Source: Demequina maris (GTDB taxonomy: Bacteria > Actinomycetota > Actinomycetes > Actinomycetales > Demequinaceae). Taken from it: a stretch of DNA of 64,000 nt. Below, in pieces: positions 15,531 through 51,235 of this stretch. The stretch spans positions 1 through 64,000 of the forward strand of contig NZ_BBLX01000010.1 of the NCBI RefSeq assembly GCF_000971155.1, given 5' to 3'. Both the position numbers and the translations under genes were made by a program. The notes below the pieces were generated by a model, which ran no database searches, was not told where the DNA came from, and saw only the letters and a program-made list of their open reading frames with translations. Every line of letters starts with the position of its first letter. Position 1 is the first letter of the stretch.

Positions 15531-16484
15531 TCACGGGGAAGCGCGAGGCCGCTCGAGACGCGCCGCGATGGTGTCCGCGAGCATCCGACGGCACCACTCG
15601 GGCCTGTCACGCAGATCCTTGAAGGAGAAGCGCACCGGCAGCCATCCGATCGCGGCGAACTCGGTGTTGCGCTCGCGATCCCGCGCGACCGCCCTGGGCC
15701 CGGTGTGGTCGGCATCGCCGTCACACTCGAGGTCGACCTTGGCGGCGCGGTGGATGGCGTCGGGGATGCGGCGCCGCCCGTTGACCACCATAGGGACCTG
15801 CCATTCGAGCTCCGCGAACTCCGGTCCCGTGAACACCTCGCGACGGGCCATCACCTCGGTCGGGGAGGTGGCGCCCGTGAGGAAGTCGCCCATGATCGCG
15901 TCAAACGTGCGGCGGTCGGGCAGACGCGCGCGGCGCGACGCCGCGTTGACGAGCCGCCGCGGCCCGGCGATCTTGAGCCAGAGCGCCCGGTACAGGATGT
16001 CCTTGCGCCGGTCCGACGACGCGCATGCCCACGCGTCGAGCAGGGCGTCCTCTGCCAGCAGGCACCGCGACCCGAGCGCCGAAGAGATCGCGGACGGCCT
16101 CGGCAGCCTCGGCAGGTGGATCCAGGCGGGAGGGCGCGTGCTCCATCCGGGCGGGACCACGGCGCGGACCCGCTCCGGCGCCGGGAACGCGCGGTTGCGG
16201 AGATGAAGGGCCGACTCCCCGGCGATGAGAGCGGCCTTCTTCGACCACACCATCACCGCCTCGCACCGGACGTCGTGCGCCTCGGCCTGATCGGCCGCGA
16301 CGTACACCCCCGGAAGCAGGGCGACGAGCCCGCCGCGAGCAACGGCCTCCTCCAGCCCCACGCGCCCGATCGCGCTCAGGACCGTCGCCCGCGTGAACGC
16401 GCGAGGGTAGAGGACGGGCTCGGCTTCGCGCAGCCGGTCGAGGAACGCGACGACCCTGCTCTCCACCTTCCTCGACCGCCCCAT
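15531..16484 (-). CDS. AbiEi-like winged-helix plus DUF559-type nuclease-fold protein
   Basis: 317 residues, ATG at 16484. The N-terminal part (about 25-65) resembles the AbiEi-type antitoxin wing: a helix pair, then RGGLVALLPGVYV. The C-terminal part (about 225-305) has the DUF559 pattern related to very-short-patch-repair endonucleases: a conserved acidic DLECDGDADH, then RERNTEFAAIGWLPVRFSFKDL in outline. Such proteins are common in actinobacteria and mostly uncharacterised. No toxin gene is adjacent. Direct copies of a 14-nt repeat flank the gene, which may mean transfer or may simply be terminator sequence. Nuclease activity is inference. Confidence 0.6.
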   Translation of the reverse strand: MGRSRKVESRVVAFLDRLREAEPVLYPRAFTRATVLSAIGRVGLEEAVARGGLVALLPGVYVAADQAEAHDVRCEAVMVWSKKAALIAGESALHLRNRAFPAPERVRAVVPPGWSTRPPAWIHLPRLPRPSAISSALGSRCLLAEDALLDAWACASSDRRKDILYRALWLKIAGPRRLVNAASRRARLPDRRTFDAIMGDFLTGATSPTEVMARREVFTGPEFAELEWQVPMVVNGRRRIPDAIHRAAKVDLECDGDADHTGPRAVARDRERNTEFAAIGWLPVRFSFKDLRDRPEWCRRMLADTIAARLERPRASP

Positions 16485-30564: not shown

Positions 30565-31581
30565 TCAGCGCATCGTCCCGTCGGGGGGCAGGACCTCCAC
30601 GCCGGTCGGGGCGGGACGGCTCAGCGGCACCGGCTTGCCCCAGACCGGGCGGCCGGCCTCGTCGAAGGGAAGGACCTGCGCGCAGGCCTGGCGGTTGGGC
30701 TCCCACAGCGGGTCGCCGACCAGCTCCGTGTAGGTGCGAGCGTGGTAGACGAGGACGGTCTCGCCCTCAGGGGACTCGGTGAACGAGTTGTGGCCCGGGC
30801 CGTAGATGCCGTTCTCGGGGGCGGAGGTGAAGACGGGGTCCGGGCCCTTGGTCCAGCTCGCGGGCGAGAGGAGGTCCGCGCCCGCGTCCGCGGTGAGCAG
30901 CCCCATCGCGTACTCGATGCCCGTGCCCGACGCCGAGTAGGTGAGGTACAGCCTGCCGTCCTTCTGCAGCACGCTCGGGCCCTCGTTGACCCAGAAGGTG
31001 ACGATCTCCCAGTCGTACTCGGGCTGCGTGAGCATCACCGGCGGCGACGCGAGCGTCCAGGGGTTCTCCATGCGCGCGATGTAGAGGTTCGAGTGCCCCT
31101 TGACGTCGAAGTCCTGCTGCGCCCACACGAGGTACTGGTCGCCGTCCTGCACGAAGCTCGTGGCGTCGAGCGCGAACGTCTCCCAGCCGGTGTCGACCTG
31201 GCCCTTCTCGGTCCAGGTGCCGGTGAGCGGGTCGTCATCGGTGCACTCGAGGCAGAAGATGCGGTGGTTGAAGGTGTCGTCCGCGTGCGGGACGTCGAAG
31301 GTGACGTCGGGGTTGGGCGCGGCCGCGTAGTAGAGGTACCACGCGTCGTTCACGCGGTGGATCTCGGGCGCCCAGATGAGGTGGGACTGCGGTCCGGACT
31401 CGTGCTTGGTCCAGATGGTGACCTCGGGCGCGGCCTGCAGGTCCTCGAGGCGCTCGGCCCTGCGGAGGACGATGCGGTCGTAGAGCGGGTACGAGCCGGT
31501 GAAGTAGTACTGGCCGTCGTGACGCAGGACGCACGGGTCCGCGCGCTGGAGGACGATCGGGTTCGGGATGGTCTCGGGCAC
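30565..31581 (-). CDS. GH43 family alpha-L-arabinofuranosidase-like enzyme
   Basis: 338 residues, GTG start with GGAG upstream. It starts NPIVLQRADPCVLRHDGQYYFTGSYP: the Asp in ADP is the GH43 general base. DATSF supplies the pKa-modulating Asp and FWVNEGPSVL the catalytic acid Glu. The five-bladed propeller pattern runs to the end; there is no signal peptide, so it acts inside the cell on imported oligomers. The sequence resembles exo-1,5-alpha-L-arabinofuranosidases of the Araf43A type. A tandem near-duplicate lies at 32844-33875. Confidence 0.85.
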   Translation of the reverse strand: MPETIPNPIVLQRADPCVLRHDGQYYFTGSYPLYDRIVLRRAERLEDLQAAPEVTIWTKHESGPQSHLIWAPEIHRVNDAWYLYYAAAPNPDVTFDVPHADDTFNHRIFCLECTDDDPLTGTWTEKGQVDTGWETFALDATSFVQDGDQYLVWAQQDFDVKGHSNLYIARMENPWTLASPPVMLTQPEYDWEIVTFWVNEGPSVLQKDGRLYLTYSASGTGIEYAMGLLTADAGADLLSPASWTKGPDPVFTSAPENGIYGPGHNSFTESPEGETVLVYHARTYTELVGDPLWEPNRQACAQVLPFDEAGRPVWGKPVPLSRPAPTGVEVLPPDGTMR

Positions 31582-31688
31582 GGCCGCTCCTCGCGTGGTC
31601 AGACGTCTCCTCGCACCCTATTCGGGCAGGATGCGGGGCGCGACACGAGCCCCCCCGCCACCGCACCACCCCCCCCCCCGCCACACGC

Positions 31689-31705
31689 CGGGACACTCAG
31701 TACTC
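31689..31705 (+). repeat. 17-nt repeat, copy 1
   Basis: Reads CGGGACACTCAGTACTC. The next copy starts exactly 41 nt later at 31730. Confidence 0.75.
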
Positions 31706-31729
31706 CATTCTTGGCCCCGCCGCGCCCCA

Positions 31730-31746
31730 CGGGACACTGAGTACTC
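31730..31746 (+). repeat. 17-nt repeat, copy 2
   Basis: CGGGACACTGAGTACTC, one base different from copy 1. Confidence 0.75.
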
Positions 31747-31810
31747 ATCACGCCCGGCGGGGCGGGCAGATGGCATTCCTCCACCCGTGGAGCGCGACGC
31801 GCGCGAGAAC

Positions 31811-31827
31811 GAGTACTGGGTGTCCCG
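31811..31827 (-). repeat. 17-nt repeat, copy 3 (inverted)
   Basis: Plus strand reads GAGTACTGGGTGTCCCG, the complement of copies 1 and 2 with one change. Confidence 0.75.
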
Positions 31828-31851
31828 CAGCGCGCGGAGCGACGCGGGAAG

Positions 31852-31868
31852 GAGTAGTGGGTGTCCCG
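31852..31868 (-). repeat. 17-nt repeat, copy 4 (inverted)
   Basis: Plus strand reads GAGTAGTGGGTGTCCCG, 41 nt after copy 3, with one further change. Confidence 0.7.
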
Positions 31869-31931
31869 GCCGGGCATGGGGTTGGAGCGGGACCTGTGTC
31901 TCACCTGGATCCCACACGACCCGGGATACGA

Positions 31932-31945
31932 TCCGGTGCACCGGA
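31932..31945. promoter_or_regulatory. GntR operator candidate
   Basis: TCCGGTGCACCGGA is a perfect 14-nt palindrome ending 25 nt before the GntR ATG. TACGAT (31927-31932) touches it and could be the -10 box, so bound regulator would block its own promoter. Confidence 0.6.
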
Positions 31946-31970
31946 CGTCCACCAGTGCAAGGAGGCATCG

Positions 31971-32621
31971 ATGGCCCCGGAGAGCAAGGCCGACCACGCG
32001 TACCGCGTCCTCACCGAGCGCCTCGCGGACGGCGTCTACCTGCCCGGACACCGGCTTGTGATCGACCGCCTGGTGCGCGAGCACGACATCAGCTCGATCC
32101 CGTGGCGCGAGGCGCTGCGTCGCCTCGAGGCCGAGGGCTGGGTCGACATCATCCCCAACGCCGGCGCGGTGGTGCGGTCCTTCGACACCGAGGAGCAGCT
32201 CGGCACGATGCGCATCCTGGGCCGGCTCGAGCCGCTCGCGATCGCGCTGTCGGCGCCGCGCATGACGCGGGACGAGATCGCCGCGGCGCGCGAGCTCGAG
32301 GAGCAGGCGCAGGCCGCGCTCGCCGACTTCGACGCGGCCCGCTTCGCCACGCTCGACCGCGCCTTCCACGCGCTCATGCGCGCCCACTGCCCCGACGCCC
32401 GCCTCGCCGCGATGGTCGACGCCGAGAGCCTCCGTCTCGCGATGATGGACCGCGTGCTGCCCGCGCACGCTCCGGGCCGCATCGCCGCCACGCCCGAGGA
32501 GCACGAGGGGCTGCTGCGGCTCATCGAGTCCGGCGCGGACGCGGCCGCGATCGAGGACGCCGCGCGTCTGCACCGCCTGCGCACCGTCGCCGCGATCGAG
32601 GCGGCCGCTCGCGAGGGCTGA
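31971..32621 (+). CDS. GntR family regulator, FadR/FCD subfamily
   Basis: 216 residues, ATG with GGAGG 5 nt upstream. The N-terminal winged helix (about 5-70) has AYRVLTERLADGVYLPGHRL and the HTH segment ISSIPWREALRRLEAEGWVDI. The C-terminal all-helical FCD ligand domain (about 80-210) binds small organic acids or sugars in this subfamily. Placed between two GH43 genes, it probably controls one or both together with the symporter. A perfect palindrome just upstream is the likely operator. Confidence 0.85.
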   Translation: MAPESKADHAYRVLTERLADGVYLPGHRLVIDRLVREHDISSIPWREALRRLEAEGWVDIIPNAGAVVRSFDTEEQLGTMRILGRLEPLAIALSAPRMTRDEIAAARELEEQAQAALADFDAARFATLDRAFHALMRAHCPDARLAAMVDAESLRLAMMDRVLPAHAPGRIAATPEEHEGLLRLIESGADAAAIEDAARLHRLRTVAAIEAAAREG

Positions 32622-32843: not shown

Positions 32844-33875
32844 TCAGGCCGGCGCCACCTGCGGCATGCCCTCGGGGGGCAGCACGTCGAGCGCCGTCGG
32901 CACGGGGCGGGTCATCGGCTGCGGGGCGCCCCACACCGGGTTGCCGTCCGCGTCGAAAGGCAGCACCTGGGCGCAGGCCTGACGGTTGGGCTCGTACAGC
33001 GGGTCGCCCTCGATCTTCGTGTAGGTGCGGGCGTGGTAGACCAGCACCGTCTCACCCTCGGGGGACTCGGTGAACGAGTTGTGGCCGGGACCGTAGATGC
33101 CGTTCTCCGGCGCCGAGGTGAAGACAGGCTCGGGGCTCTTGGTCCACGAGGCGGGGTCGAGCACGTCGGCGTCGGCGTCCGCGATCAGCACGCCCATCGC
33201 GTACTCGGGGCCCGTGCCGGACGCCGAGTAGGACAGGTAGAGCTTGCCGTTCTTCTGCAGCACCGAGGGGCCCTCGTTCACCCAGAACCGCTCGATCTCC
33301 CAGTCCAGCTCGGGCTTGGTGAGCATGACCGCGGGCGTCGCGAGCGTCCAGGGGTTCTCCATGCGCGCGATGTAGAGGTTCGAGTTGCCGCGGATCTCGT
33401 AGTCCTGCTGCGCCCACACGAGGTACTGCACGCCGTCCTTCACGAAGCTGGTGGCGTCGAGGGCGAAGGACTCCCAGCCGGTGTCGACCTGGCCGCGCTC
33501 GACCCACTCGCCCGTCATGGGGTCCTCGTCGGTGCACTCGAGCACGAAGACGCGGTGGCAGAACGTCTCGGCGGTGTCCGGCACGTCCGCGTGCGGGTGG
33601 CCGATCGCGGCCGCCGCGTAGTAGATGTACCAGGCGCCGTTCACGCGGTGGATCTCGGGGGCCCAGATGAGGTTCGACTGCGGGCCCTCGTGGTGCTTGG
33701 TCCAGATCGTCACCTCGGGGGCGGCCTGCAGGTCCTCGAGGCGCTCGGCGCGCCGCAGGACGATGCGGTCGTACAGCGGGTACGAGCCGGTGAAGTAGTA
33801 CTGGCCGTCGTGACGCAGGACGCACGGGTCCGCGCGCTGGAGCACGATCGGGTTCGGGATGATGTCCGTGGGCAC
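32844..33875 (-). CDS. GH43 family alpha-L-arabinofuranosidase-like enzyme (paralogue)
   Basis: 343 residues from GTG 33875, which has GGAGG 7 nt upstream; an ATG 12 codons earlier lacks one. Same catalytic triad as 30565-31581: ADPCVLRHDG, DATSFVKDG and FWVNEGPSVL. Long stretches are identical between the two even at DNA level, for example the first 35 codons after the start, so this is a recent duplication or the pair is kept alike by conversion. No signal peptide. A near-perfect CAACGTTG palindrome lies upstream of this copy only, so its control may differ. Confidence 0.85.
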   Translation of the reverse strand: MPTDIIPNPIVLQRADPCVLRHDGQYYFTGSYPLYDRIVLRRAERLEDLQAAPEVTIWTKHHEGPQSNLIWAPEIHRVNGAWYIYYAAAAIGHPHADVPDTAETFCHRVFVLECTDEDPMTGEWVERGQVDTGWESFALDATSFVKDGVQYLVWAQQDYEIRGNSNLYIARMENPWTLATPAVMLTKPELDWEIERFWVNEGPSVLQKNGKLYLSYSASGTGPEYAMGVLIADADADVLDPASWTKSPEPVFTSAPENGIYGPGHNSFTESPEGETVLVYHARTYTKIEGDPLYEPNRQACAQVLPFDADGNPVWGAPQPMTRPVPTALDVLPPEGMPQVAPA

Positions 33876-33921
33876 GGCGTGGCCTCCTCGTCGTTGAGTC
33901 ATGGACTTCATGAACTGCTTT

Positions 33922-39500: not shown

Positions 39501-40450
39501 CGCCGCACCTTCCTCTCGGCGCGCTGCGAGCCGAGCTGCACCACGTACGACATCACCGCGATGACGAGGCCGAGCAGGAACGCGATGGCCGCGGCGTAGT
39601 TGACGTCCTGGTTCACGAACGCGACGTTGTAGGCGTAGAAGTTCGGCGTGAAGCCGTTGGTGATGACCACCGGCGCGATGGCGTCGAGCAGCGCCGGCTC
39701 GTTGAAGAGCTGGAACGTGCCGATCACCGAGAAGATGACGGTGAGCATGATCGCGGGCTTGATCGCCGGGATCTTGATGCTGAGCGCGATGCGGATGCGG
39801 CTGGCGCCGTCGATCGCCGCGGCCTCGTAGAGCTCGGTGGGGATCGCGCGGAGCGCGGCGTACATGATGATCATGTTGTAGCCCACGTACTCCCACGTGA
39901 CGATGTTCATCATCGACCCGAGGATGCTCGACTCGCCCAGGAGGTCGGGCGGCTGCAGGCCCACCGCCTCGAAGGCCTGGGTGATGGGGCCGAAGTCGGG
40001 GCCGTAGAGGTAGCCCCACATGAGCGTCGCGACGACGCCGGGGACCGCGTACGGCATGAAGGCGAGCAGGCGCGCGCTGCGGGCGGCGCGGGTGCGGCCG
40101 CTGTCGATCGCGAGCGCGAGGAACAGCGCGACGCCCAGCATGATCGGCACCTGGATGACGAGGAAGAGCGCCATGCGCCCGACGCCGCCGAGGAAGGCCG
40201 GGTCGGTGAGCGCCTCGGCGAAGTTCTTGAGCCCCACGAATGACGTGCCGCCGATGAGCTTGCTCTCGAAGAGGCTGAGGTACGCGGCGTAGCCGAGCGG
40301 CACAAGGATCATCGCGATGAACAGCACCATGAACGGCACGACGAAGAGGAAGCCTGCGAGGGGGTGCCCGCGATGGCCGCGGCGCGCCGCGCGACCGGGC
40401 GACCTGCGCGTCGCCGGCGGATCGGCGGAGCTGACGGTGGTGACGGCCAT
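39497..40450 (-). CDS. sugar ABC transporter permease (MalF-type)
   Basis: 317 residues with six helices and the EAA loop ELYEAAAIDGASRIRIALSIKIP. Its first 30 residues are basic and cytoplasmic. Works as a heterodimer with the MalG-type partner. Separated by 72 nt from the binding-protein gene upstream on the same strand. Confidence 0.92.
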   Translation of the reverse strand: MAVTTVSSADPPATRRSPGRAARRGHRGHPLAGFLFVVPFMVLFIAMILVPLGYAAYLSLFESKLIGGTSFVGLKNFAEALTDPAFLGGVGRMALFLVIQVPIMLGVALFLALAIDSGRTRAARSARLLAFMPYAVPGVVATLMWGYLYGPDFGPITQAFEAVGLQPPDLLGESSILGSMMNIVTWEYVGYNMIIMYAALRAIPTELYEAAAIDGASRIRIALSIKIPAIKPAIMLTVIFSVIGTFQLFNEPALLDAIAPVVITNGFTPNFYAYNVAFVNQDVNYAAAIAFLLGLVIAVMSYVVQLGSQRAERKVRR

Positions 40451-40522
40451 GGGAGGCCCTCCTTCACTGCGTTGTGAGGGTGGTGGCGGGGGCGCCGATG
40501 CGCGGCGCCCCCGCCCTTGCTG

Positions 40523-41884
40523 CTACTCGATCGTGAAGCCCTGCTCGGTCGCGTAGTCGACGATCTCCTGCTGCCAGTCGTCGAGCGCGGCGACCGCGTC
40601 GCCCTTCTTCTCCCACGCGACGCCCACGGTCTCGTTGTACGCCGAGAGGACGAACTCGTTGAACGGGAGCCACTCGAAGGTCGGGTCGACCGTGGCGGAG
40701 ATGTCCGCGAACTCGGCGTTCACCTCCTGGCCGCCGAAGAACTCGACGGGCTGGTCGGCGTACTCCGGGTCCTCGAGGAGCGACTTGAGCGCCGGGTAGA
40801 GGAACTGCTCGGTCGCGAACATCGTCGTCGGCTCGGGCTCGTGGTTGATCCAGCGCGCGAGCTCGTAGGCCGCGATCGGGTTCTCCGTCGTGGAGAGCAC
40901 CGCGTTGGACGAGCCGCCCCAGTTGCCGGACACCGGGTTCGCGGCGTCCCACTGCGGCAGCGGCGCCGCGCGCCACTTGCCGGCGGTGCCCTCGGCCGTG
41001 CCCTGGAGGAAGATCGGGCCCCAGGCGGGGACGAGCCAGCCGGCGTAGTGGCCGTTGGCGATGTTCTGGAACCAGTTGTCGGTCCAGCCCGCGTCGGTGG
41101 ACACGAGGTCCGCCTGGACGAGGTCCTGCCAGTACTGGACGACCTCCTTGACCTCGGGCGAGTTCACGTTGATCGACACGGTCTCCGCGCCGTCGTAGCC
41201 GAACGGGTCGAGGCCCGCCTGCCACAGCAGCGCGATCAGCTGGACGGGCTCGTTCGCCGCGAGGTTCGAGATGTACGAGCCGGTCTTCTCCTTCACCTGC
41301 TTCGCGGCCTCGGCGTACTCGTCGTACGTCTCGGGCGCGCCGTCGAGGCCGGCCTCCTGGAGGATGTCATCCCGGTAGAGGTTGCCCATGGGGCCGGTGT
41401 CCTGCGGGATCGCCCACACGCCCGCATCGTTCGCCACCTGGTTCCAGACCCAGTCGACGTAGTCGCCGCCCAGGTCGCGGGCGCCGTACTCCGACAGGTC
41501 GAGCAGCGAGCCGGTGAGGTTGAAGGTCGGGATGTACATGTACTCGATCTGGGCGACGTCGGGTGCGCCCTCGCCGGACTCGAGCGCCGAGCGCAGCTTC
41601 TGGTAGTGCTCGAGGCCCTGGCCCACGTTCTCGACGGTGACGTCGATCGCGGGGTACTCCTCCTCGAAGAGCGCGATCTCGTTCTCGATGTCGGGGACCC
41701 ACGTCCAGAACGTCAGCTTGGTCGGGGTGGTCATGGCCTCGTCGAAGGCGTCCGAGGCGATGGGCTCGGCGCTCGCGCCGTCGCCGCCGCCATCGCCGTC
41801 GCCGGAGCTGCAGCCGGTGGCGATCAGGGAGAAGGCGGCGGCAGTTCCTGCCAGCGCCATTGCTGTCCTACGTGCCTTGTTCAT
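40523..41884 (-). CDS. sugar-binding lipoprotein of ABC importer
   Basis: 453 residues. Lipobox IATGC at about residue 25, then a Gly/Asp linker and a family-1 extracellular solute-binding domain. LTFWTWVPDIENEIALFEEEYP opens the domain, and aromatic residues such as NWGGSS follow late, as in oligosaccharide binders. It captures sugar outside the membrane and feeds the MalF/MalG-type permease pair. Only 15 nt from the GH42 gene upstream, so one operon. Oligo-beta-galactosides are the probable cargo given the two GH42 enzymes. Confidence 0.9.
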   Translation of the reverse strand: MNKARRTAMALAGTAAAFSLIATGCSSGDGDGGGDGASAEPIASDAFDEAMTTPTKLTFWTWVPDIENEIALFEEEYPAIDVTVENVGQGLEHYQKLRSALESGEGAPDVAQIEYMYIPTFNLTGSLLDLSEYGARDLGGDYVDWVWNQVANDAGVWAIPQDTGPMGNLYRDDILQEAGLDGAPETYDEYAEAAKQVKEKTGSYISNLAANEPVQLIALLWQAGLDPFGYDGAETVSINVNSPEVKEVVQYWQDLVQADLVSTDAGWTDNWFQNIANGHYAGWLVPAWGPIFLQGTAEGTAGKWRAAPLPQWDAANPVSGNWGGSSNAVLSTTENPIAAYELARWINHEPEPTTMFATEQFLYPALKSLLEDPEYADQPVEFFGGQEVNAEFADISATVDPTFEWLPFNEFVLSAYNETVGVAWEKKGDAVAALDDWQQEIVDYATEQGFTIE

Positions 41885-44210: not shown

Positions 44211-45296
44211 ATGACCGAGCAGGCCATCCCGGCGACGGAGCAGGGACGCCCCGACGCGGGGTCCGGTGCCGACCGCAAGGCGCGCCACGGCGCGGCCGCC
44301 GCGGGCAAGCCGGCCACGATCTACGACGTCGCGCACGCGGCGGGCGTGTCGCATCAGACCGTGAGCCGCTACCTCAAGGGCTTCGAGGGCATCCGACCGG
44401 AGACGCGGGCGAAGGTCGAGCGCGCGCTCGCCGAGCTCGACTACCGCCCCAACCTCACGGCCCGGTCGCTCACCACCGGACGGTCCCGGCGCATCGGCGC
44501 CCTCACGCACGACATCGACAAGTACGGACCCAGCAAGATCCTCGGCGCGGCGTCCGCGGCGGCGCGCGACGCCGGCTACGTGCTCGACGTGGTGACGCTC
44601 GACACCACCGACACCGCGTCGATCCGCGAGGCGCTGGCCATCATCGCGGAGCACGACGTCGAGGGCATCCTCGCGCTGTCGTCCACCGACGAGATGACGC
44701 ACGCCTTCGAGGGCATCGACTTCCGTGTGCCCGCGCTGATCGCGGCCGAGCCCGACGAGCCCTCGCGGGTGCAGTCCCAGCTCGCGACCGTCGGCATGCC
44801 CGCGCTGGTCGCGCACCTCGCGCAGCTCGGGCACCGCCGGCTGATCTTCCTGGCCGGACCCCACCACTGGTCCGCGGCCCGCAACCGTACCCGTGCCCTG
44901 CAGGTCGCCGCGGAGACGCAGGGCCTCGAGGTCGCGGCGATCCTCGAGGGCGACTGGTCCGCGCGCTCGGGCCACGAGCTGATCCGCGACCTGCCGGAGG
45001 TCGACGCCACGGCCATCGTGTCGGCCAACGACCAGATGGCGCTCGGCGCGGTCCTCGCGCTGTCCGAGCGCGGCCTCGACGTGCCCGGCGACGTCAGCGT
45101 GACGGGGATCGACGACCTGCCCGACGCCGCGTTCTACACGCCGCCGCTCACGACACTACGGATGGACCTCTCCGGGCGCGGACGTGCGGCCTTCGCCGAG
45201 CTCCTCAGCCGGATCGACGGGTCCGAGGCGCACGAGCCCGAGCCGGTGCAGTCGGAGCTGATCGTGCGGAGCTCGACCGGCCCGGCGCCGCGCTGA
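44211..45296 (+). CDS. LacI family transcriptional regulator
   Basis: 361 residues from ATG 44211. The DNA-binding part begins after a poorly conserved stretch of about 35 residues: ATIYDVAHAAGVSHQTVSRYLKG (HTH), then the hinge helix YRPNLTARSLTTGRS. The periplasmic-binding-like effector domain follows, ending with DLPDAAFYTPPLTTLRMDLSGRG, the typical LacI close. The extended N-terminus is unusual. It should repress the GH42/ABC operon until a galactoside-type inducer binds. Confidence 0.9.
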   Translation: MTEQAIPATEQGRPDAGSGADRKARHGAAAAGKPATIYDVAHAAGVSHQTVSRYLKGFEGIRPETRAKVERALAELDYRPNLTARSLTTGRSRRIGALTHDIDKYGPSKILGAASAAARDAGYVLDVVTLDTTDTASIREALAIIAEHDVEGILALSSTDEMTHAFEGIDFRVPALIAAEPDEPSRVQSQLATVGMPALVAHLAQLGHRRLIFLAGPHHWSAARNRTRALQVAAETQGLEVAAILEGDWSARSGHELIRDLPEVDATAIVSANDQMALGAVLALSERGLDVPGDVSVTGIDDLPDAAFYTPPLTTLRMDLSGRGRAAFAELLSRIDGSEAHEPEPVQSELIVRSSTGPAPR

Positions 45297-45358
45297 GCGT
45301 CGCTGGCTTCCCCGCAGGGGTCGCAGACCTCGCAGAAGCGTCGCTGAGCTCCCCGCAG
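45297..45358. repeat. direct repeat pair, 41-nt spacing
   Basis: GCGTCGCTG, four variable bases, CCCCGCAG: copies at 45297-45317 and 45338-45358. They fill the gap between the LacI gene and the convergent UbiB-like gene. No clear hairpin terminator is present. Confidence 0.65.
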
Positions 45359-45384
45359 CGCGGTGGGGGTGGATGATCCCCTGG

Positions 45385-51044: not shown

Positions 51045-51175
51045 TGCCGACCACCATAGGCAGGTCTCATGCGATCGCGCGAGGGTGCCTTGCCGCGCCG
51101 CGGTGTTCACCGGGCGCGAGTCGCGCGTCGGGCATGCGCACTCGTTGATCGCCGGGGCGCATCACGGAGGTGCGG

Positions 51176-51235
51176 CGACACGGATCGGCACCATAGGAGC
51201 GGATGCAGCTCGAGAAGCGACACGATTCGGCACCA
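51176..51235. repeat. direct repeat pair, 42-nt spacing
   Basis: CGACACGGATCGGCACCA (51176-51193) and CGACACGATTCGGCACCA (51218-51235). They lie in the 240-nt gap between the CopC-CopD start and the aldo/keto reductase stop, which otherwise holds no gene. Confidence 0.65.

Follow-up and report, generated by a model that had tools for sequence, protein, structure and literature searches.

Dispersed twin-word repeats in Demequina genomes and a candidate nuclease partner

The gap between a GH43 glycosidase gene and a GntR/FCD regulator gene of Demequina maris contains four similar 17-nt words. What are these words, and do they belong to the neighboring genes or to something that is found elsewhere? 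The window analyzed here is the whole stretch of 64,000 nt, C13:1-64000 of the D. maris genome (G000). A preliminary description of it had reported two direct and two inverted copies of the word, with 41 nt per pair, in a gap with a poly-C tract. This layout is confirmed at 31689-31868 (Table 1). The start-to-start distance is 41 nt inside each pair, and 64 nt separate the left pair from the right pair. The set is located in the gap at 31582-31970, between the divergent GH43 and GntR/FCD genes, with the poly-C run near 31669-31679. The GntR gene is flanked by two similar GH43 genes, so a DNA query with one retrieves the other in many species.

Table 1. Features of the window, with positions counted from its first nucleotide.
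Feature	Position	Strand	Details
Word 1 of the left family-1 unit, CGGGACACTCAGTACTC	31689..31705	+	word search of window and genome
Word 2 of the left family-1 unit, CGGGACACTGAGTACTC, 1 mismatch to CGGGACACTCAGTACTC	31730..31746	+	41 nt after word 1
Inverted word of the right family-1 unit (second in its reading direction), 1 mismatch	31811..31827	-	
Inverted word of the right family-1 unit (first in its reading direction), 2 mismatches	31852..31868	-	41 nt away
Whole left family-1 unit	31685..31749	+	nhmmer 58.3 bits; profile built partly from this unit
Whole right family-1 unit	31808..31875	-	nhmmer 50.2 bits; profile built partly from this unit
GH43 glycosidase gene, left neighbor, pointing away from the set	30565..31581	-	Pfam PF04616
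GntR/FCD regulator gene, right neighbor, pointing away from the set	31971..32621	+	Pfam PF00392, PF07729
Second, similar GH43 gene	32844..33911	-	
Family-2 unit (GGGGAACTSAGCGACG-like words, 41 nt)	45294..45364	-	nhmmer 61.1 bits
Family-3 unit (GATCCGTGTCGC-like words, 42 nt)	51162..51234	-	nhmmer 56.0 bits
DUF559/MTES_1575-type nuclease gene	15549..16406	-	outside the repeat-flanked clade

The word is dispersed in the D. maris genome. A search that allowed at most two mismatches gave 12 matches, and the reversed pattern gave none. Together with weaker copies, these matches make up a second four-copy set at C22:328753-328897, with the same inward plan (> > < <) as in the window, and further pairs at C19:200853, C14:84467, C17:115406, and C22:4871. 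Across the genus, a pair pattern that permitted a spacing of 38-44 nt matched in 10 of 44 Demequina genomes, with 57 pairs in all, and its controls matched nothing. These two comparisons, 12 against 0 and 57 against 0, show that the 17-mers are not chance repeats. The preliminary description had named uniqueness of the 17-mer to this gap as evidence against its reading, and the 17-mer is not unique. Of the pairs, 43 have a spacing of 41 nt, 13 of 42 nt, and one of 40 nt. The earlier idea of a small mobile element or a binding array, and the remark that four helical turns fit this distance, hold up well, with all 57 pairs at 40-42 nt.

Among 84,980 species, represented by one genome each, a somewhat stricter pair pattern matched 37 stretches, and all 37 are from this genus. 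A looser core pattern, applied to 396 genomes of the order, matched 11 Demequina genomes and, once, a genome of another genus; its control matched once, elsewhere. One lone pair from outside Demequina but within the order (L229, G401), which has the word GGGACACTGAG and a spacing of 42 nt, may be chance. A weight matrix applied to 49 six-kb contexts gave 74 units, with 60 at 41 nt, 13 at 42 nt, and one at 40 nt, a distribution that is partly by construction because 40-43 nt was permitted at the definition of a unit.

Family-1 words have the form GGGACRCTNAGNMCTC and are spelled differently by species. The spelling TCCTC is found in D. soli, where the pair has the word GGGACGCTCAGTCCTC, and in D. 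lignilytica. Most sites of D. maris and D. rhizosphaerae have TACTC, D. sediminis has both TACTC and GGACTC, and G017 has GGACCG. The spelling GCACTCC, with a 42-nt spacing, is found in G042 and in a second subfamily of D. soli, and G014 has other spellings. The spellings are not pure, as the D. maris sites L132, L134, and L136 deviate. The spacers of ~25 nt are nearly free. Their mean identity is 0.35-0.44 within a genome, 0.32 between genomes, and 0.28 when shuffled, and it ranges from 0.09 to 1.0 at orthologous sites. The words and the four-turn distance are thus kept, and the rest drifts. Triple words at 41+41 nt, forming short arrays of the same pitch, are seen at L160 and L173.

Gene contexts, assigned with our own gene caller, place most family-1 units at gene ends. 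A co-oriented stop codon is next upstream in 51 of the 74 units, at a distance of 8-60 nt in 42 of them. Another 17 units are next to the start of a divergent gene, and six are inside predicted genes. Inward sets are common in family 1. Counting all families, 21 of 39 D. maris sets lie between convergent genes, 13 between tandem genes, and five between divergent genes; convergent gaps make up only 17.3 of the 160 kb of intergenic DNA. The site in the window is among the few between divergent genes.

Many positions are old. Fourteen site groups, comprising 35 of the 49 loci, are common to at least two species, and in one group of six species the unit directly precedes the same start codon in five. 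The presence of a unit at one place also differs between near species. The preliminary description asked whether the set is missing in relatives. In D. rhizosphaerae (G019), the GntR gene is kept at 87% DNA identity, with 32 unaligned nt in place of the 249 nt that carry the set in the window; other sites are common to several species. The homologous GH43/GntR gap of D. silvatica (L108, G023) holds a set that also faces inward and whose first word, GGGACRCTCACCRTGCTTTT, is different; its words share at most the start GGGACRCTCA with those of the window. No signal of target-site duplication was observed in 21 inward family-1 sets (mean 1.29 versus a null of 1.45, p 0.65). As many positions are old and common to several species, recent movement is not directly visible.

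One family-1 unit lies within a repair gene. VLSVP appears twice in the linker of the Ada-AlkA fusion protein of D. maris (L133, C19:200466-201941), owing to an in-frame repeat unit inside the gene. An AlkA match was present in 38 of 44 genomes, and 17 of 30 loci were aligned. In-frame traces of both words are seen in eight of the 17 aligned species and are decayed in a ninth. The words are absent from the linker in G010, G018 (D. phytophila), and G023 and in the outgroups, one of which has another long loop. The linker segment is 162 nt in D. maris and 123 nt in G010.

The spacing itself was used as a search term, as the preliminary description had proposed. A de novo scan covered 1.63 Mb, about 55% of the D. 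maris genome, and counted 16-nt self-matches of at least 13 positions after a shift d. Noncoding direct repeats are in excess at 41 and 42 nt, where 24 and 17 self-matches were counted, respectively. Over the remaining shifts between 24 and 71, the mean is 5.5 and the maximum 12; two masked N stretches are part of every count. Four more families are behind this peak, making five in all. Family 2 has the words GGGGAACTSAGCGACG at 41 nt (14 profile matches), family 3 has GATCCGTGTCGC at 42 nt (9), family 4 has CACCNTCAGCGGTAC at 42 nt (15), and family 5 has GGTAGNTGGTGGTCG at 41 nt (11). Family 1, with CGGGACACTCAGTACTC-like words, has nine profile matches in the scanned sequence. In the total of 58, one AlkA site is counted as two halves, one family-3 match is partial, and families 2 and 5 coincide at one place. 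Families 1, 2, and 5 have some letters in common and may be kin. Families also combine: the mosaic set <4 >3 >4 occurs at C20:255910-256133, C21:320442-320664, and C22:360488-360703, one of them in reverse.

Families 2 to 5 are rare outside of D. maris. Loci from other genomes, amounting to 1.18 Mb with some overlap, gave two matches to family 2, one weak match to family 5, and none to families 3 and 4. Other species appear to have words of their own. The GH43/GntR loci of other species, which were not selected for repeats, contain nine matches at shift 41, most of them with new words and about two of them chance-like. If multiples of 3 are set aside, the remaining shifts give zero to four. 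The AlkA and DUF559 loci of other species have no shift-41 excess. In viral contigs, no family-1 pair and no family-4 word match was found, and 21 stretches have single family-2 word matches.

Folding differs between the families. The mean z is -0.93 for family 1 (74 units, 11 below -2), 0.34 for family 2 (14 units), -0.41 for family 3 (8 units), -0.90 for family 4 (15 units, four below -2), and -0.07 for family 5 (11 units). Families 1 and 4 lean to folding, and families 2 and 5 fold no better than shuffles. Within family 1, the word of D. soli folds and that of the window barely does. An RNA element was considered and dropped: the Rfam scan of the window gave no match at the gathering cut-off and two sub-threshold matches only, and folding is weak and not common to all families.

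A gene is found between the units at a few loci. In D. maris, the segment C19:40195-41272 contains one gene, at 40223-41143, between family-4 units. Its product has a DUF559 domain, a large family that is of unknown function according to Pfam. A homologue in D. soli (L153:1988-2932), 40% identical to the D. maris gene, lies between family-1 units. L233, the homologue in G017, is bordered by unit pairs at both ends. For L405, the homologue in G035, a family-2-like unit was seen 5' of the gene and none 3' of it. Three of these four genes were met through their units, and only L405 was found independently, by domain search. The four flanked nucleases form one clade, with support of 100/99 in a tree of 29 DUF559 rows. 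For this tree, 23 of 30 DUF559 loci gave rows, seven being without a match at E 1e-4, and the rows of D. soli, G017, D. maris, and the window completed it to 29 rows, 28 of them different. Among the 24 other genes of the tree, seven have isolated 12/16 matches with a spacing of 40-43 nt no farther than 400 nt away, one or two per gene. These matches, including those near the paralogue in the window, were judged to be chance-like.

The scanned D. maris sequence contains 1,470 genes. With a limit of 200 nt, 71 of them have a unit next to at least one end, and two have units next to both. In just one of the 1,470, the nuclease gene at C19:40223-41143, the units at the two ends are of the same family, a count that uses the longer tblastn open frame; the start given by the gene caller puts the right unit 226 nt away, outside the limit. 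Within the 55% of the genome that was scanned, no nuclease gene is bordered by units of families 1, 2, 3, or 5. DUF559 at large was dropped as a partner, since matches occur in 44 of 44 Demequina genomes (2-8 per genome), the 30 generic DUF559 loci have no 41/42 excess, and the association is seen in one clade only.

The flanked proteins resemble PD-(D/E)XK nucleases. Residues E239, D241, H246, and D255 (numbered on the first sequence) are invariant in five of five aligned proteins and form the E-x-D-G, H, D pattern. DUF559 scores above the Pfam cut-off in two of the four flanked proteins and below it in two, and AbiEi models match the N-terminal part of two of three tested proteins. The predicted structure had a mean pLDDT of 39 and was too poor to use. 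A search of solved structures gave no relative at an E-value below 0.46, and the phage and plasmid collections contained no relatives.

Gene-bearing and gene-less forms are oriented alike. The two simplest gene-bearing loci measure 1,085 bp in D. soli, by word positions, and 1,078 bp in D. maris, by profile positions. All two-unit family-1 sets without a gene are inward, and four of five gene-less family-4 sets are outward; both gene-bearing loci have the orientation of most gene-less sets of their families. This is as expected if the gene-less sets are deletion derivatives.

Taken together, the set in the window is tentatively read as one copy of a dispersed, mostly extragenic twin-word element of Demequina, with a nuclease of the flanked clade, bordered by a unit family that is present at many sites of its genome, as its likely partner and the two-unit sets as its gene-less derivatives. 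We hold this reading with confidence slightly short of even. The repeats, their spacing and placement, the families, and the association with the gene are observed, and binding, cutting, and movement belong to the interpretation. The unit is composed of two direct words of ~16 nt, 41-42 nt or four helical turns apart, a distance at which one protein complex could contact both from one face of the DNA. The AbiEi-like part of the nuclease, or a dimer, may read both words on that face. The nuclease would then open the DNA beside the unit, and repair would place copies of the unit elsewhere, with or without the gene. Gene ends may be the least harmful landing sites. Gene-less derivatives would spread by copying and be kept between species, as REPs do relative to their RAYT. 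Several families of the same build and different words coexist in a genome, with species-specific spellings. A bolder proposal is that these are a new class of minimal mobile element, with twin-word ends four turns apart, an AbiEi-like/PD-(D/E)XK nuclease as sole gene, word and nuclease changing together, and private families with gene-less swarms. We consider this possible but somewhat doubtful.

A fixed, immobile chromosomal site with a cellular function at gene ends is a rather unlikely alternative. Such a site could be a transcription end, a roadblock, or a domain border, bound by a protein that co-evolves with the word, and the nuclease gene would be a mere neighbor. The co-oriented stop codons, the excess of sets in convergent gaps, and the positions common to several species, at which spacers drift and words stay, all fit. 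However, near species differ in the presence of a unit at the same place, six of 74 units are inside predicted genes (AlkA), and some, including those of the window, are between divergent genes. The nuclease association would also be a coincidence.

Homing or addiction is improbable to a greater degree. Here, the nuclease would cut at or near sites that lack or bear the twin word, and the repeats would be targets or protected sites instead of element ends. The invariant residues of the five aligned proteins and the AbiEi-like N-terminal part in two of three are consistent with it, but the outer units of gene-less sets mostly face as in the gene-bearing ones, as those of deletion derivatives would.

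A genuine REP/REPIN family, mobilized by a RAYT (Y1) transposase, is very improbable. Passages of PMC3733652 and PMC3116915 describe REPs near stop codons, between convergent genes, as inverted doublets, and, for some copies, inside repair genes, all of which match the units described here, and families 1 and 4 lean to folding. However, Y1_Tnp (PF01797) was found in 0 of 44 Demequina genomes, with a control that was positive in 5 of 14. This largely refutes the RAYT explanation unless a very diverged Y1 protein was missed, and families 2 and 5, with no folding beyond shuffles, do not fit it either.

Control of the divergent GH43/GntR promoters by GntR or another local regulator that binds the four words deserves marginally less credence still. 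The set does lie between divergent genes, and its words are phased by four turns. The role of the adjoining GntR, proposed in the preliminary description, is nevertheless unsupported, because units lie beside unrelated genes, mostly at 3' ends, and the nearest relative, G019, keeps the GntR gene without the set. The GntR binding array was therefore dropped, and the earlier interpretation as a whole is partly supported. Plain tandem duplication or meaningless chance repeats, for which the triples at L160 and L173 might be cited, can be dismissed given the exact 41/42 peak and the common positions and spellings.

If the preferred reading of a twin-word element with a nuclease partner is true, part of the DUF559 family gains a role, and the 41-42 nt DNA ruler provides a handle for biochemistry. 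Other genomes may hide similar families, which ordinary repeat finders miss because just two short words are kept per unit. Among the titles and abstract openings searched, no account of such repeats in Demequina and no tie between DUF559 and repeats was found.

Several known repeat systems invite comparison. MITEs with complex ends are one of these. The gene-less sets are MITE-like in being short and in having inverted units at their ends, and a form of ~1.08 kb that bears the gene faces the same way. This form, a putative autonomous element, has units on both sides of the gene in three genomes and on one side in one. Unlike MITEs, no target-site duplication was found in the 21 family-1 sets, inner length varies, single units are common, and positions are long-lived. 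MIRU are repeats of mycobacteria. As with MIRU, the units are intergenic and gene-oriented, and some abut start codons, but they keep just the words of ~16 nt, and the spacers vary. BIMEs of E. coli, named in the abstract of PMC2817692, are mosaics. The mixing of families in sets like <4 >3 >4, which recurs at three places, resembles them, whereas the Demequina sets are made of twin direct words and not of REP palindromes, and protein binding is putative.

The closest likeness is to REP/REPIN systems with RAYT (REPtrons). Like these, the Demequina repeats are dispersed, mostly extragenic, near 3' ends and stop codons, in convergent gaps, and in inverted doublets; the set in the window, between divergent genes, is an exception. 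Both systems have several families per genome, one type of gene flanked by repeats, and some copies in DNA-repair genes. They differ in that the Demequina unit is a direct pair at 41-42 nt, with no hairpin common to all families, and that the genomes are without a detected Y1/HUH transposase. The gene bordered by repeats is instead a DUF559 nuclease, so REP-like habits are seen here without RAYT. Given the lack of Y1 and the mixed palindrome result, the element is not placed within REP/RAYT. By analogy, it appears to work like that system, as a variant of it and possibly as a new kind if the nuclease moves it.
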